A DNA stretch of 46,847 nt from a virus, in IMG/VR virus record IMGVR_UViG_3300026519_000003, positions 1 to 46,847 of that record, one strand, 5' to 3'. The notes under the pieces were generated by a model. That model saw only the letters and a list, made by a program, of their open reading frames with translations, searched no databases and was not told where the DNA came from. The position numbers and the translations under genes are program-made. Of this stretch, positions 12,184 through 20,692 are shown in pieces. Numbering within the stretch: the stretch's first letter is position 1; each line of letters opens with the position of its first letter.

Positions 12184-12912
12184 ATGAGCAAAGAAACCAA
12201 AATAGAAGAAACGAAAGATATTTGCGATGTAATCGTGAAGCTCGCGCCCGTTATCGGCGCGTCAAGCGCGGAAGCGTTCGGGGAAAGGATGATGAACGCA
12301 AGGATGGCGGCCGCTGCTGCGGCGGCGGTTGACGAGATAGGAAGGATCAAGGCCAAGAAGCTGGTGTCGTTCAACGCGACATCGTATTCGTACCAGCCGC
12401 TCGACCTGATCATTGAGCAAACGAAGGGCGTGCTCAACAAGCACGGACTCTGGGTGAACTGGGAGACAAGCAGAGGCCCGGACGGGGAGCTTTCGGTGGT
12501 CGCAGTTCTGCGGCACAAGGACGGCGGAACCGCCACATCAAGAATGAGCGCATCGCCGGACATGAGCGGGAAAAAGAACCCGATACAGGCGGCAAAAAGC
12601 GCGATCACCTATATGAAGCGCATCACCTACATGAGCGTTATCGGTCTTGAGGCCGGAGAAGAGGATGATGACGGCGTGAGCGCAGGAGCAAATGATGGCG
12701 GCATGGCCGAGAAAGAGACTGTATCGATGGCGCAGGCCGAAGCGCTCAAGAAAATAGCTGCCGAGGCGCAGGCTGATGTAGACGCCATATTCAACCACTT
12801 CGGCGTCAGTTCGTGGGATGATATTCCAGCGCTTGCGTTCCCGGCGCTGCGGGCGCGACTGATGAACAAGATTGCCGAAATGAACGAGAACGGGGCGGAC
12901 TCCAATGCCTGA
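12184..12912 (+). CDS. erf: Erf-family single-strand annealing protein
   Basis: The 242-residue protein matches the ERF superfamily, typified by P22 Erf, which anneals complementary single strands during phage recombination and genome circularisation. Visible landmarks are FNATSYSYQPLDLIIEQ (residues 63-80), a GELSVVAVLRHKDG beta segment and the family hallmark AAKSAITYMKRITYMSVIGL ending in an acidic EEDDDG turn. The C-terminal third is helical and acidic. A GAGGAACC sequence precedes the ATG. It is followed with an 8-nt overlap by a YqaJ-type exonuclease, the usual exonuclease/annealase pairing. Confidence 0.85.
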   Translation: MSKETKIEETKDICDVIVKLAPVIGASSAEAFGERMMNARMAAAAAAAVDEIGRIKAKKLVSFNATSYSYQPLDLIIEQTKGVLNKHGLWVNWETSRGPDGELSVVAVLRHKDGGTATSRMSASPDMSGKKNPIQAAKSAITYMKRITYMSVIGLEAGEEDDDGVSAGANDGGMAEKETVSMAQAEALKKIAAEAQADVDAIFNHFGVSSWDDIPALAFPALRARLMNKIAEMNENGADSNA

Positions 12913-13546
12913 GATCATTTGGGATGTTGAGCAGGGCAGTGATGAATGGCTCGATCTGCGCATGGGGATCCCGACCGCAAGCGAGTTTGGCCGGATAATC
13001 ACCGAATCCGGTAGCGCCTCGTCCCAGCGAGGGAAGTACATCACTTCCCTTGCGGCGCAGCGGTTGACGAGGAGCGATGACGGGAACTGGACCGGCAACA
13101 GCGACACCGAGCGCGGGCACATGCTGGAGGGTGAGGCTGCGGATGCGTACAGGGATTTGCTCATGCTCGAAGAAGCGGAGCCGAAGGTGGTCGGGATCGT
13201 GTTCAAGGACGACAGCCGGAAGGTGGCGTGCAGCCCAGATCGGCTTCTCATGCGAGGCGACGAAATCGTTGGCGGTCATGAGATCAAGTGCCCGCGTGCC
13301 TCTACGGTGGCCGACTACATCCTGAACAGCAAGCGGCCCTACAAGCAGCAGGTACACGGATCGATGTGGGTGTGCGAGGTCGAGTCATGGACGCTTATCG
13401 TCTATCATCGCGTGATGGGGATCATCGAGATAGAGTACAAATGGGATTGGTACACCGATGCGCTCGGAAAGGCCGTGGAGAAATTCGTCGATGACCTGGA
13501 TGCAGCGGTCGATAAACTGGCCGAGTACACCGGGCTTAAACCGTAA
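12905..13546 (+). CDS. YqaJ/lambda-exonuclease-like recombinase nuclease
   Basis: The 213-residue protein belongs to the YqaJ viral recombinase family (PD-(D/E)XK fold). The N-terminus has the family signature [16 protein letters not shown]. Catalytic motifs are visible: Asp112 in ACSPDRLL, and Glu126-x-Lys128 in GHEIKCP. A conserved [11 protein letters not shown] segment follows near residue 150. It should resect 5' ends of duplex DNA to leave 3' single strands for the Erf protein encoded just upstream. The eight-base overlap implies coupled synthesis. Confidence 0.88.
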
Positions 13547-16260: not shown

Positions 16261-16372
16261 AATCATCCCGGCCCCAATGGTGCGGGTGGGCGCGTCCGCC
16301 GCGCGCCATGCTACCGGGCGCGCTGCCGGCGATGATGGAGGTGCCGGGCGGCACCTGGAGGCAGGGGAATGA
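16250..16372 (+). CDS. Very small coupled gene (about 40 residues)
   Basis: An ATG at 16250 overlaps the end of the preceding gene by 11 bases and the reading frame closes at 16372, overlapping the next ATG as ATGA. The product starts MTTEIIPAPMVRVGASAARH and continues Gly/Ala/Asp-rich. It has no Shine-Dalgarno site of its own. It fits the coupled style of the operon and fills an otherwise empty gap, but composition alone does not prove it. Confidence 0.4.
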   Translation: MTTEIIPAPMVRVGASAARHATGRAAGDDGGAGRHLEAGE

Positions 16373-16779
16373 GATGGAGGGCGGCCGGACAGGGCGGGCG
16401 CAACAAGTACCGCGCGCGCGCGCAGTGGGTGTGCCCGCAGTGCCTGGTATCTGTCGGCAGCGCATCGGCTCAGTTGCCGTGCGGGCATCAGGGGAAGCCG
16501 ATCTATTTCCACAGCACCGGAGAACTGCGCAGGTACGCCGAACTGGTGGCGCTTGAGGAGGCCGGCGAGATCAGCGGGCTGACGAGGCAGCGCAGGTTCG
16601 ATCTCGATGTGAACGGTGTCCATGTGTGCCGGTACACGGCGGATTTTAGCTACACGGACAGCAGCGGGACGGAAGTCATCGAGGACTACAAGGGCGTTGA
16701 TACCACCGACTCAAAGCTGCGCCGTAAACTGCTGTATGCGCTGACTGGCATTGAGGTTCTTGTGACGAGGGCCAGATAG
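16369..16779 (+). CDS. DUF1064-type nuclease-like protein
   Basis: The 136-residue product starts after GGAGGCAGGGGA. It has an N-terminal NKYRARAQWVCPQC segment, then a core that fits DUF1064: ELRRYAELVALEEAGEISGL, a beta region ending YTADFSYTDSSG, and VIEDYKGVDTTDSKLRRKLL. The D-F...E-D-x-K arrangement resembles PD-(D/E)XK nucleases, and the family is thought to act as a Holliday-junction or branch nuclease. It closes the recombination operon just upstream of a new promoter. Confidence 0.72.
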   Translation: MRWRAAGQGGRNKYRARAQWVCPQCLVSVGSASAQLPCGHQGKPIYFHSTGELRRYAELVALEEAGEISGLTRQRRFDLDVNGVHVCRYTADFSYTDSSGTEVIEDYKGVDTTDSKLRRKLLYALTGIEVLVTRAR

Positions 16780-18291: not shown

Positions 18292-18373
18292 TTGCATTAG
18301 CGACATGGTGCGCTATATTGTGCCCATGAGCGCAGGGGGTTGGCCCCGAGCGCCAAAACCGACCGAGAGGTGA
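18292..18373 (+). promoter_or_regulatory. Cassette 1 promoter, operator and RNA leader
   Basis: The -35 is TTGCAT (18292-18297) and the -10 TATATT (18314-18319). Between them and overlapping the -10 is the operator TAGCG-N8-CGCTA (18298-18315). The leader has hairpin 1 (GGGG/CCCC around GTTGG with flanking GCGC, 18330-18353) and hairpin 2, ACC-GAGA-GGT, just before GAGAGG. The hairpin-2 stem differs from other copies (ACC/GGT against GCC/GGC) but still pairs. Confidence 0.75.
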
Positions 18374-18379
18374 GAGGAA

Positions 18380-19003
18380 ATGAAATCTATTGAGCTTGAC
18401 GCAGCATATACCCCGGATTCCTTCGCTTTTGACGCGGGCGCTGAGGCCCGCATCATGGGCGGCGGGGTAGCGATGATCCCCGATACGGTTGCCGAGGATC
18501 AGGAAGGGAGCGACGGGGAGTTCTTCCCCGTCATGGTCATCAGCGGAGGCCGCCCCGTTCCGGCTGTCGGACGCCTTGAGGGCGACGAGTATGACCTGCA
18601 CGGATCAGGAACGGGCGACCCGGTAGTCTCAATCCACGGCTATCTGCCGGAGCCTGGCGACGAGCCGGATGTCATTGTCGAGGAGTCAGAGCGCATCATT
18701 GATGACGACGGAGGAGCGGCTTCCGTCGGATGGGTTTACTACGAACTGCGGATGGCCGACGAAGACAACCCGGAGCAGGGCTGGGAGGCGACGATTCAGT
18801 CGTGGTTCAAACGGCCAGACGACAGCGACGCCGAGCCGGTCATCACGGATGAGCACGGCGCGGAGACGCACCGCATCGACGACATCCCGGCTTCCGTCGC
18901 CGCGCTGCCGCTCAATGAGCGCAAGGAGTGGAATGACTTGGTGGTCGCCTACCTTGAGCGCAACTTCGACGCCCCTGGATCGCTACCGGAGCAGCCGGAA
19001 TGA
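18380..19003 (+). CDS. Acidic protein, candidate anti-defence factor
   Basis: The 207-residue product follows cassette promoter 1, with GAGAGG near the ATG. It is strikingly acidic, with Asp/Glu runs such as DEPDVIVEESERIIDDDGG, few Lys or Arg, and a probably beta-rich centre (GWVYYELRMAD). No family is recognised. High negative charge is typical of DNA-mimic inhibitors of CRISPR or restriction complexes, but charge alone is not proof. It is coupled by ATGA to the Aca1-like regulator, the gene order of many anti-CRISPR operons. Confidence 0.62.
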   Translation: MKSIELDAAYTPDSFAFDAGAEARIMGGGVAMIPDTVAEDQEGSDGEFFPVMVISGGRPVPAVGRLEGDEYDLHGSGTGDPVVSIHGYLPEPGDEPDVIVEESERIIDDDGGAASVGWVYYELRMADEDNPEQGWEATIQSWFKRPDDSDAEPVITDEHGAETHRIDDIPASVAALPLNERKEWNDLVVAYLERNFDAPGSLPEQPE

Positions 19004-19230
19004 CTGCTCAGCCTGACATTGCCAATCACAACCCTGCCCCGTCCTATCTGCGCAGCCTTATTGCGCGGATAGGGCTGTCCCAGCGAGCCATTGCCCGCCG
19101 GCTCGGTATCGATGAGACGCTGCTGCGCCGGTACATCACGAGGCCAGAGAACGCGAGTTACCGCCGTTGCCCGTACCTGGTGCAGTTCGCGCTCGAGGTG
19201 TGGTCTGATGGGTGCGAAAAAAACTGTTGA
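19000..19230 (+). CDS. Aca1-like helix-turn-helix regulator
   Basis: The 76-residue protein is a small HTH repressor. Its centre SQRAIARRLGIDETLLRRYI forms the HTH; before it is NHNPAPSYLRSLIARIGL and after it YRRCPYLVQFALEVW. From memory this follows Aca1 of Pseudomonas phage JBD30 almost without gaps (NHDPDPRYLR..., SQRRAAELLGL, PYTVQFALE). Aca proteins repress the anti-CRISPR promoter by binding an inverted repeat there, and such repeats occur in all four cassettes here. The ATG overlaps the acidic gene as ATGA, and its TGA lies within the TTGACA of cassette promoter 2. I expect autoregulation and control of the other cassettes. Confidence 0.8.
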   Translation: MTAQPDIANHNPAPSYLRSLIARIGLSQRAIARRLGIDETLLRRYITRPENASYRRCPYLVQFALEVWSDGCEKNC

Positions 19231-19319
19231 CAGTAGCGACAAGTGGCGCTATAGTGCTCCCCATGACGCAGGGGGTTGGCCCCGAGCGCACAACCAGCCG
19301 AAAAGGCGAGGAGATCATC
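19111..19319 (+). repeat. Duplicated block, copy A
   Basis: The C-terminal half of the Aca1-like gene plus promoter, operator and leader is repeated at 20091-20299 with high identity and nearly the same length. It indicates that the regulator tail and promoter moved together as one unit. Confidence 0.75.
19227..19313 (+). promoter_or_regulatory. Cassette 2 promoter, operator and RNA leader
   Basis: TTGACA (19227-19232), TATAGT (19250-19255) with a 17-base spacer, and the operator TAGCG-N8-CGCTA (19234-19251). The leader carries hairpin 1 (GGGG-GTTGG-CCCC, 19266-19289) and hairpin 2 (GCC-GAAAA-GGC, 19297-19307) followed at once by GAGGAG. Confidence 0.82.
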
Positions 19320-19604
19320 ATGAAAATAATTATCGGGAATGCAAACTTGGCCGTTGTAAAGGCGGCAATCAAAAGCGGACTTATGGACAGCATCGGGGCC
19401 AGCAACAACTGGCTGGCCCCGTCATACAGCCGCGACAAGGCGGCAATAGTCGTGTCTGGTGGGCCTGGATTCTCCAGGTATTGGACGGTCAAGGTGGTCC
19501 AATACGGTGATGTGACCGACATCACATCACCAGACGGGCGCACCTATGCACAGGCATTCGTACACGCGAAAGTGCTGATTCCAGCAATAGCGGGCATCGA
19601 ATAG
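19320..19604 (+). CDS. Small orphan protein, cassette 2 (candidate anti-CRISPR)
   Basis: The ATG at 19320 follows GAGGAG in the conserved leader; the product has 94 residues. It begins MKIIIGNANLAVVKAAIKSG, with a central SNNWLAPSYSRDKAAIVVSG and a hydrophobic C-terminus (VHAKVLIPAIAGIE). It looks like a compact alpha/beta protein. No family is recognised. Being a small orphan gene with its own Aca-type operator is the main reason to call it an anti-defence candidate. Confidence 0.62.
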   Translation: MKIIIGNANLAVVKAAIKSGLMDSIGASNNWLAPSYSRDKAAIVVSGGPGFSRYWTVKVVQYGDVTDITSPDGRTYAQAFVHAKVLIPAIAGIE

Positions 19605-19608
19605 CCTG

Positions 19609-19692
19609 TTGACAATAGCGCCAACAGTCGCTAGTCTGTAATTGAGCGCAGGGGATTGGCCCCGGCGCACAACCAGCCGAAAGGCGAGGAGA
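19609..19692 (+). promoter_or_regulatory. Cassette 3 promoter, operator and RNA leader
   Basis: TTGACA (19609-19614), a weaker -10 TAGTCT (19632-19637), and the operator TAGCG-CCAACAGT-CGCTA (19616-19633). The half-sites are intact although most spacer bases differ from the other copies. The leader has hairpin 1 (GCGC-A-GGGG-ATTGG-CCCC-G-GCGC, 19646-19668) and hairpin 2 (GCC-GAAA-GGC, 19676-19685) next to GAGGAG. Confidence 0.78.
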
Positions 19693-19698
19693 GAAAAA

Positions 19699-19971
19699 AT
19701 GAAATACGCAGTCATGCAGACCGGATACGCTATCTATGGTGTTGGCGATACTGAACGCGATGCCATGGAGAACGCAGTGCAATGGATCGACGAGGCTCGA
19801 TCAGCCGACGATGTGGCCGATTTGATATCAAAAGGAAACGGATTTCACGGTGATTTCAAAATCGCAAAAATCACTGACAAACTGGCCGATCAGGCAGGAA
19901 GCGATGGGGCGCTGCCATGGGATCAGCTCGATGACGGAACATACTGCACAGTAGAAGAAGCAGCAGAATGA
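19699..19971 (+). CDS. Small acidic orphan protein, cassette 3 (candidate anti-CRISPR)
   Basis: The 90-residue product starts MKYAVMQTGYAIYGVGDTER, continues with an acidic helix (MENAVQWIDEARSADDVADL), and ends in a DDGTYCTVEEAAE tail. The opening TGYxIYGxG resembles small phage proteins I have seen without known function. It is acidic overall. Its promoter carries the Aca-type operator, and its stop overlaps the start of a second HTH reading frame as ATGA, echoing cassette 1 (candidate plus regulator). Confidence 0.62.
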   Translation: MKYAVMQTGYAIYGVGDTERDAMENAVQWIDEARSADDVADLISKGNGFHGDFKIAKITDKLADQAGSDGALPWDQLDDGTYCTVEEAAE

Positions 19972-19977
19972 GCAGTC

Positions 19978-20004
19978 GCCATCCCCCCTCTGGGATGGCT
20001 TTTT
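19978..20004 (+). terminator. Rho-independent terminator after cassette 3
   Basis: GCCATCCC (19978-19985), a six-base loop and GGGATGGC (19992-19999) form an 8-bp stem followed by TTTTT. It lies seven bases past the cassette 3 stop, so cassette 4 needs its own promoter. Confidence 0.85.
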
Positions 20005-20090
20005 CCGACCTTCGGCTGTCCCGCACAGTCGAAGGCGATCTGGAATTCGATGCAGATGCAATCCTCCGCATCTGCGCCGCCAGCGGCCTC

Positions 20091-20299
20091 GACGAGGCCC
20101 TGTTCCGGCGCTACATCACGAGGCCAGAGAGCGCGAGTTACCGCAGATGCCCGTATCTTGTGCAGTATGCGCTTGAGGTGTGGGCTGATGCGGGGCGTGA
20201 AAAAACTGTTGACATTAGCGACAGGTGGCGCTATAGTACTCCCCATGACGCAGGGGATAGGCCCCGAGCGCACAACCAGCCGAAAGGCGAGGAGAGAGC
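20091..20299 (+). repeat. Duplicated block, copy B
   Basis: Paralogous copy of 19111-19319, covering the tail of the second HTH frame, promoter 4 and its leader. Differences are mainly third-codon, spacer and loop positions. Confidence 0.75.
20209..20294 (+). promoter_or_regulatory. Cassette 4 promoter, operator and RNA leader
   Basis: TTGACA (20209-20214), TATAGT (20232-20237) with a 17-base spacer, and the operator TAGCG-N8-CGCTA (20216-20233). Hairpin 1 is GGGG-ATAGG-CCCC (within 20248-20271); hairpin 2 is GCC-GAAA-GGC (20279-20288), then GAGGAG. Confidence 0.82.
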
Positions 20300-20647
20300 A
20301 TGACTGCTGCTAATCGTGTCAAGAAGATCGTGGAGACGGCGATCAGAATGATGGATGATGGGGACTGGAACCCATCTCTCGGTGGGCGTTGGGAATCTGA
20401 GTTCGCCGATGTGAGCGTCGAGTTTACAGGCCCGAACCGGTTCTGCACAAAGGCGGCTTACCGCGTTGTCGGCAAGGATGTTGGCGTGTGGGTCGGCAGC
20501 ATGAACGGCGCGAGCCACAAGAATGTCGGAAAGCCTAACCAGCATTACACACCCTCTCAGCTTGAGAGGGAGATCGAGCTGAGCAAACGATCGCTCGAGT
20601 CCATTGTTGCGTCAGGGCTGGGCGTAGATGCCCATGATTCAGCCTGA
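20300..20647 (+). CDS. Orphan protein, cassette 4 (candidate anti-CRISPR)
   Basis: The 115-residue product starts after the conserved leader. It has an N-terminal helix (ANRVKKIVETAIRMMDDGDW), a beta-rich centre (FADVSVEFTG, YRVVGKDVGVWVGSM) and a C-terminal helix (QLEREIELSKRSLESIV). No family is recognised. It has its own promoter and terminator, making it a self-contained unit, and the Aca-type operator predicts control by the regulator at 19000. Confidence 0.62.
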   Translation: MTAANRVKKIVETAIRMMDDGDWNPSLGGRWESEFADVSVEFTGPNRFCTKAAYRVVGKDVGVWVGSMNGASHKNVGKPNQHYTPSQLEREIELSKRSLESIVASGLGVDAHDSA

Positions 20648-20670: not shown

Positions 20671-20692
20671 AGCCGCCGCAATGGCGGCTTTT
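20671..20692 (+). terminator. Rho-independent terminator ending the accessory island
   Basis: AGCCGCC (20671-20677), loop GCAAT and GGCGGCT (20683-20689) followed by TTT form a compact terminator. The remaining bases up to 20760 hold a possible -10 (TATAGT, 20731) for the terminase operon; the nearest -35-like hexamer (TTGAAA, 20704) is 21 bases away, too far to be convincing. Confidence 0.75.

Follow-up and report, generated by a model that had tools for sequence, protein, structure and literature searches.

In the anti-CRISPR operons of Pseudomonas phages of the JBD30/D3112/MP29 type, one or more small acr genes are followed by aca1, and a palindromic operator lies within a strong promoter, of which there is one per locus. 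The stretch of viral DNA analysed here (IMG/VR record IMGVR_UViG_3300026519_000003, positions 1 to 46,847; the whole 46,847-base stretch is called the window) carries a locus of the same general plan, with a small gene and then an aca1 homologue, a palindromic operator in a strong promoter and a related leader hairpin ahead of the gene. It differs in having four operator promoters, three of them driving units without aca1, in its operator sequence (TAGCG, compared with AGGAAC/AGGCAC) and in a leader comprised of two hairpins. This locus is probably an Aca1-controlled multi-promoter regulon built by the accretion of acr-aca1-type operons.

Two other systems resemble parts of this arrangement. 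Aca2 of phage ZF40, also a helix-turn-helix (HTH) repressor of an acr operon with a structured leader, was reportedly found in a later study to bind its leader RNA besides repressing acr transcription, and offers a works-like model for an RNA layer of control. Its family is distinct from that of Aca1 and has a dimerisation domain of its own (PMC8434428). The establishment regulons of pLS20 and p576 (EGeRS; PMC8708921) also consist of a number of variable operons, with a copy of one conserved regulatory-leader sequence ahead of each, and include anti-restriction genes thought to be transiently expressed on entry. Multi-operon counter-defence regulons with repeated leaders are therefore already known from pLS20-family plasmids, but these are Gram-positive conjugative plasmids with EGeRS1 elements of 420 to 751 bp and no Aca1, and the window differs from them in regulator, size and element.

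A preliminary description, made from the letters of the DNA alone, had claimed four perfect TAGCG-N8-CGCTA palindromes, each between the -35 and -10 elements of a promoter and each with a different 8-base spacer. All four were found, with the same spacers, in register in promoters U1 to U4 (Table 1), and no others occur in the window. Their offset from the -35 element (TTGACA or TTGCAT) is identical, and the operator at 18298 lies within the core promoter of the operon containing the 207-residue gene and aca1. When two mismatches were tolerated, the motif was found 20 times in the window against 22 expected; as this is no commoner than chance, the operator signal consists of the four perfect copies. 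In a control of 60 shuffles, the largest number of copies of any single 5-bp half-site with the same geometry within 2.4 kb was three, a number reached in two shuffles. Promoters U2 and U4 score 11 of 12 against the sigma-70 consensus, while U1 and U3 are weaker matches that were not called by the promoter scan. All four can be aligned through the operator and approximately 60 further bases of leader.

The likeness to Aca1 reported earlier for the 76-residue HTH protein encoded at 19000 was upheld. The Aca1 structures 7c0g, 7fa3 and 7vjn of the PDB match residues 4–68 of its 76 (E 5e-15), and a check of its family gave a match to phrog_3865 (2.9e-18), identifying it as an Aca1 homologue. A tblastn search with this protein returned 127 phage records, nearly all of Pseudomonas phages. 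Its identity to phage Aca1s is 41 to 48%; identity to the homologue at the nearest related locus, L003, is 72%. The motifs PD-x-x-x-H-N-P, YLR and PYxVQFALE are common to the protein and Aca1, and in an alignment of 55 non-redundant Aca1 sequences the start (PD..HNP.YLR) and the end (PY.VQFALE) are almost fixed, with the positions of the recognition helix varying. Helices of class SxRxxRYY pair with operators TAGGAACA/TAGGCACA, those of class SWxGFRNY with TGGGTAAC/TGGGGTCC and those of class [ST]AAGFQNY with GACAAACA/GACATACA, a grouping made by eye and without statistical test. The recognition helices of the window (IDETLLRRY) and of L003 (IDETLFRKY) are similar, and both loci carry TAGCG-N8-CGCTA operators. 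As the helix co-varies with the operator across the family, TAGCG-N8-CGCTA is supported as the predicted site of the Aca1 homologue of the window. In L003 (L003:6001–7385) this closest relative of the window aca1 has its cassette operon on one side and, on the other, an integrase-like gene beside a tRNA gene.

The preliminary description had also suggested that a dispersed regulon of this kind would be unusual, and a census bears this out. Operator promoters were counted by a single criterion in 90 Aca1 loci (80 from IMG/VR, nine from GTDB genomes and the window); one was found in 47 loci, none was recognised in 42, and four were found only in the window, although the criterion was strict and loci extended to at most 6 kb per side, such that some multi-promoter cases may have been missed. 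TAGCG-N8-CGCTA promoter stretches in IMG/VR number 17, which is about the chance number by rough estimate, L021 excepted. A shared regulator for the promoters of this type in other viruses (L005–L021) was rejected, since no Aca1 was found with the window protein in the six whole records searched (those of L005, L007, L010, L014, L017 and L021). L004 was likewise rejected as an aca1 locus, its match to aca1 being partial and due to chance. L021 (L021:875–11768; IMGVR_UViG_3300021185_001079), from a 56-kb virus, carries nine TTGACACTAGCG-N8-CGCTAG promoters, each shortly ahead of a start codon, and represents another many-promoter regulon, in a record without Aca1.

With respect to the genes of the array, the sizes given earlier (207, 94, 90 and 115 residues, with the 76-residue HTH protein) are all correct. 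The view of the array as four single-gene cassettes stands for three units. U1 is instead a two-gene operon, because the stop codon of the 207-residue gene (19001–19003) overlaps the start of aca1 by ATGA, and the array as a whole reads as one acr-aca1-type operon with three single-gene cassettes. Each unit has its own operator promoter, but the first intrinsic terminator occurs only at 19978–19999, and transcription may read through the units before it, as no terminator precedes this point.

Also missed in the preliminary description was a degenerate second aca1 3′ end ahead of U4, with 71% identity, which is fused to the N-terminus of an open reading frame (ORF) beginning MAFSDL that is intact in L003 (103 residues). 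The block formed by the aca1 3′ end, promoter and leader is thus present twice in the window, the U2 and U4 copies being one duplicated block, and this repetition suggests that the array grew by operon addition followed by loss of the spare aca1. The degenerate 3′ end would, on this sequence evidence, be a trace of operon accretion. The array is placed between recombination genes and terminase genes. Upstream of it, at 12184–13546 and 16369–16779, are genes for an Erf-like annealase, a RecE-like exonuclease and a Holliday-junction resolvase, and such a phage-encoded recombination system could aid cassette exchange.

Each cassette was also found to possess, between promoter and start codon, a leader hairpin of the form (G)CC-A-GCC-loop-GGC-GN-GG(C), a feature absent from the preliminary description. 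The exact pattern CCAGCC-loop-GGCGNGG occurs in three copies in the window against 0.02 expected, and the U1 leader is a fourth copy carrying a compensatory change. A covariance model trained without the sequences of the window and L003 (the held-out model) had three of the window leaders among its top four window matches (E 2e-4, 1.6e-3 and 0.01), with one unrelated match between them. A search of IMG/VR for leaders of the window type identified only L003, besides unrelated matches.

Table 1. Features of the operator-promoter array and its surroundings in the window; for genes, "no homologue found" refers to the collections named in the text.
Feature	Position	Strand	Remarks
Promoter U1, TTGCAT / TATATT	18292–18319	+	Operator TAGCGACATGGTGCGCTA at 18298–18315
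5′ GC hairpin, leader U1 (GCGC..GGGG / CCCC..GCGC)	18330–18353	+	RNA fold
Leader hairpin U1, ACC-GAGA-GGT variant	18359–18374	+	Compensatory G-C to A-U pair; missed by held-out model
Orphan gene, 207 aa, pI 4.05, charge about -36	18380–19003	+	First gene of aca1 operon; no homologue found
aca1 homologue, 76 aa	19000–19230	+	ATGA overlap with 207-aa gene; stop codon within U2 -35
Promoter U2, TTGACA-17-TATAGT	19227–19255	+	Operator at 19234–19251
5′ GC hairpin, leader U2	19267–19289	+	RNA fold
Leader hairpin U2, CCAGCC-GAAAA-GGCGAGG	19294–19311	+	Held-out model R3, E 2e-4, best window match
Orphan gene, 94 aa, pI 9.4	19320–19604	+	Behind U2; no homologue found
Promoter U3, TTGACA-17-TAGTCT, weaker -10	19609–19637	+	Operator at 19616–19633
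5′ GC hairpin, leader U3	19646–19668	+	RNA fold
Leader hairpin U3, CCAGCC-GAAA-GGCGAGG	19673–19689	+	Pattern, RNA fold, held-out model
Orphan gene, 90 aa, pI 4.1	19699–19971	+	Behind U3; one marginal phage match, E 0.07
Fossil frame, MAFSDL ORF N-terminus fused to degenerate aca1 3′ end (20070–20195)	19968–20303	+	
Intrinsic terminator, GCCATCCC-CCCTCT-GGGATGGC-TTTTT	19978–19999	+	Similar one in L003 ahead of MAFSDL ORF
Promoter U4, TTGACA-17-TATAGT	20209–20237	+	Operator at 20216–20233
5′ GC hairpin, leader U4	20249–20271	+	RNA fold
Leader hairpin U4, CCAGCC-GAAA-GGCGAGG	20276–20292	+	Pattern, RNA fold, held-out model
Orphan gene, 115 aa	20300–20647	+	Behind U4; no homologue found
Intrinsic-terminator-like site closing array	20675–20688	+	Directly ahead of terminase small subunit gene

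A related leader, with an extra G-C pair in its core, lies ahead of genes in the acr-aca1 loci of Pseudomonas. It precedes AcrIF2 in MP29 and D3112 (identified from the record annotation), and in JBD88a it stands ahead of the first gene and again ahead of AcrIF3. Genes directly behind the leader also include those of AcrIF1, AcrIF7, AcrIE4 and AcrIE3, identified, like AcrIF3, by PDB or Pfam match, and some 50 small-protein families were found in this position, a figure that includes some chance pattern matches. Searched with a covariance model, Aca1 loci totalling 846 kb yielded 84 leader matches, of which 78 precede aca1 and six fall at truncated or frameshifted aca1 genes, and by our own count the leader is present in about 67 of the 80 loci having more than 900 bases upstream. 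As a test of this association that does not depend on aca1, IMG/VR was scanned with the DNA pattern of the leader, and 61 of the 67 sites found had aca1 within 2.5 kb downstream; of the remainder, five were cut off by the end of the locus and one was followed by a frameshifted aca1. The covariance-model search of 199 whole Pseudomonas genomes was too lossy to be of use, as it missed the known leader in G014. No Rfam family matches the leader, and the literature searched contained no mention of a leader hairpin in Aca1 loci, which is not proof that there is none.

Several of these loci have features of their own. Two Xanthomonas conjugative plasmids (L281:3580–4207 and L282:3630–4207) carry aca1 and the leader hairpin; leader and aca1 start are the same in both, but the genes enclosed by them differ, a case of cassette swapping. 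A Zetaproteobacterial aca1 locus (L034:4700–6195) has a leader, a 131-residue gene without assigned family and an AcrVA2-like gene directly ahead of aca1, making it a candidate type V anti-CRISPR locus on the basis of its sequence. Second genes that have a leader but no recognisable operator promoter of their own occur in L028 (leader at 1030–1069), L083 (5755–5793), L089 (5700–5739; less clear-cut, with an unrelated palindrome upstream) and L261 (12730–12769), and these internal leaders mark further candidate acr genes inside operons.

As to how the leader may act, both halves of its stem are fixed, while the loop is 4 or 5 bases long and of variable sequence; the L003 leader has one extra stem pair. 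Constant spacing would be required if the element were a DNA dyad to which a dimer binds. The fixed stem with its variable loop length, together with the promoterless internal copies, favours an RNA-level control element that would act on each gene separately. The idea that the leader encodes a conserved peptide from the ATG of CATGCCAGCC was rejected, as loop variants bring in stops or frame shifts. The leader might instead be a generic element, used by host factors, that stabilises the 5′ end or enhances translation, with Aca1 acting on DNA only, and we regard this as a serious possibility, somewhat short of an even prospect. The predicted hairpin of canonical loci does lie near the probable start of the transcript, and the Shine-Dalgarno sequence adjoins or just follows it, but all strong leader matches fall in Aca1 loci, the internal and second-hairpin positions are distant from the 5′ end, and the exact pattern occurs only three times in 199 Pseudomonas genomes, with a near-identical C/G-rich loop unlike the loops of the leader.

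The duplicated block shared by U2 and U4, the fused MAFSDL::aca1 frame and the two Xanthomonas plasmids could also be taken to mean that the promoter-leader block serves mainly as a joint for recombination and cassette swapping, conserved through recent exchange and not through RNA function. This seems rather unlikely, as the leader core is near-invariant across Pseudomonas, Xanthomonas and Zetaproteobacterial loci despite diverged operators and aca1 genes, and loops that vary between two fixed stem halves look like selection on the stem. A bolder version of RNA-level control, in which Aca1 is a dual regulator whose variable helix reads the DNA operators of each locus and whose invariant N- and C-terminal motifs read the invariant leader hairpin, is conceivable, and we put it forward tentatively. 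In the literature searched no test of RNA binding by Aca1 was found.

On the reading of the locus as an Aca1-controlled regulon, the following course of repression, timing, anti-defence function and leader action is one that we infer. As the phage DNA enters the cell without repressor, the four strong host-type promoters would fire together, and the burst would yield four small proteins that most likely inhibit host defences. Aca1 from the first operon would then accumulate, bind the TAGCG palindromes as a dimer between -35 and -10 and shut off all four promoters. The hairpin CC-A-GCC-loop-GGC-GA-GG, which extends to the ribosome-binding site, may add a layer of control at the RNA level, possibly by Aca1 itself; this layer is proposed because relatives of the leader mark genes in Aca1 operons elsewhere. 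The burst followed by repression is modelled on published work on Aca1–Aca3 and others (PMC9410906, PMC9410881).

A number of observations weigh against parts of this scheme. The overall operator span is 18 bp in the window compared with 17 bp in most Aca1 operators. The RNA covariation is weak, with one compensatory change in 77 distinct sequences, owing to the near-constancy of the stem. The held-out model fails to recover the U1 leader or that of L003, so the window leaders are to be regarded as a divergent form of the Aca1-locus leader. Finally, none of the four products resembles a known Acr or anti-defence protein. No relatives of them were found in Pfam, PHROGs, NCBIfam, PADLOC, phage and plasmid tblastn searches or the PDB (each covering one or more of the products), and these negatives speak for the searched collections only. 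The predicted structure of the 207-residue product was unusable (pLDDT 42), and that of the 90-residue product (pLDDT 66) had no significant structural neighbour. No known Acr was found in the window by these searches; the Aca1 family as a whole is associated with Acrs elsewhere.

The four genes might instead have ordinary early or late phage functions, such as replication or packaging helpers, and be under an Aca1-family regulator by chance. Their location between recombination and terminase genes would fit this, and cases of Aca-like regulators unaccompanied by acr genes exist (PMC9410906). We nevertheless consider it improbable, since, unlike core phage genes, the four lack relatives in all phage and viral collections that were searched, and small variable genes behind the leader elsewhere include Acrs. 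The association with an Aca1/leader module that elsewhere precedes proven Acrs is the case for anti-defence function, and by this analogy the four products are most likely inhibitors of host defences.

The leader hairpin offers a simple sequence bait for anti-CRISPR genes, as at least six proven Acr types (AcrIF1, F2, F3, F7, E3 and E4) and dozens of uncharacterised small gene families are found behind it. It raises the question of whether Aca1, like Aca2, also controls translation. If Aca1 is indeed a dual regulator, the hairpin would be a near-universal signpost of Aca1-controlled anti-defence genes, used here for a four-promoter regulon. If the regulon works as proposed, a single repressor would gate several separately acquired counter-defence genes, a design that the census did not reveal in the other 89 Aca1 loci.

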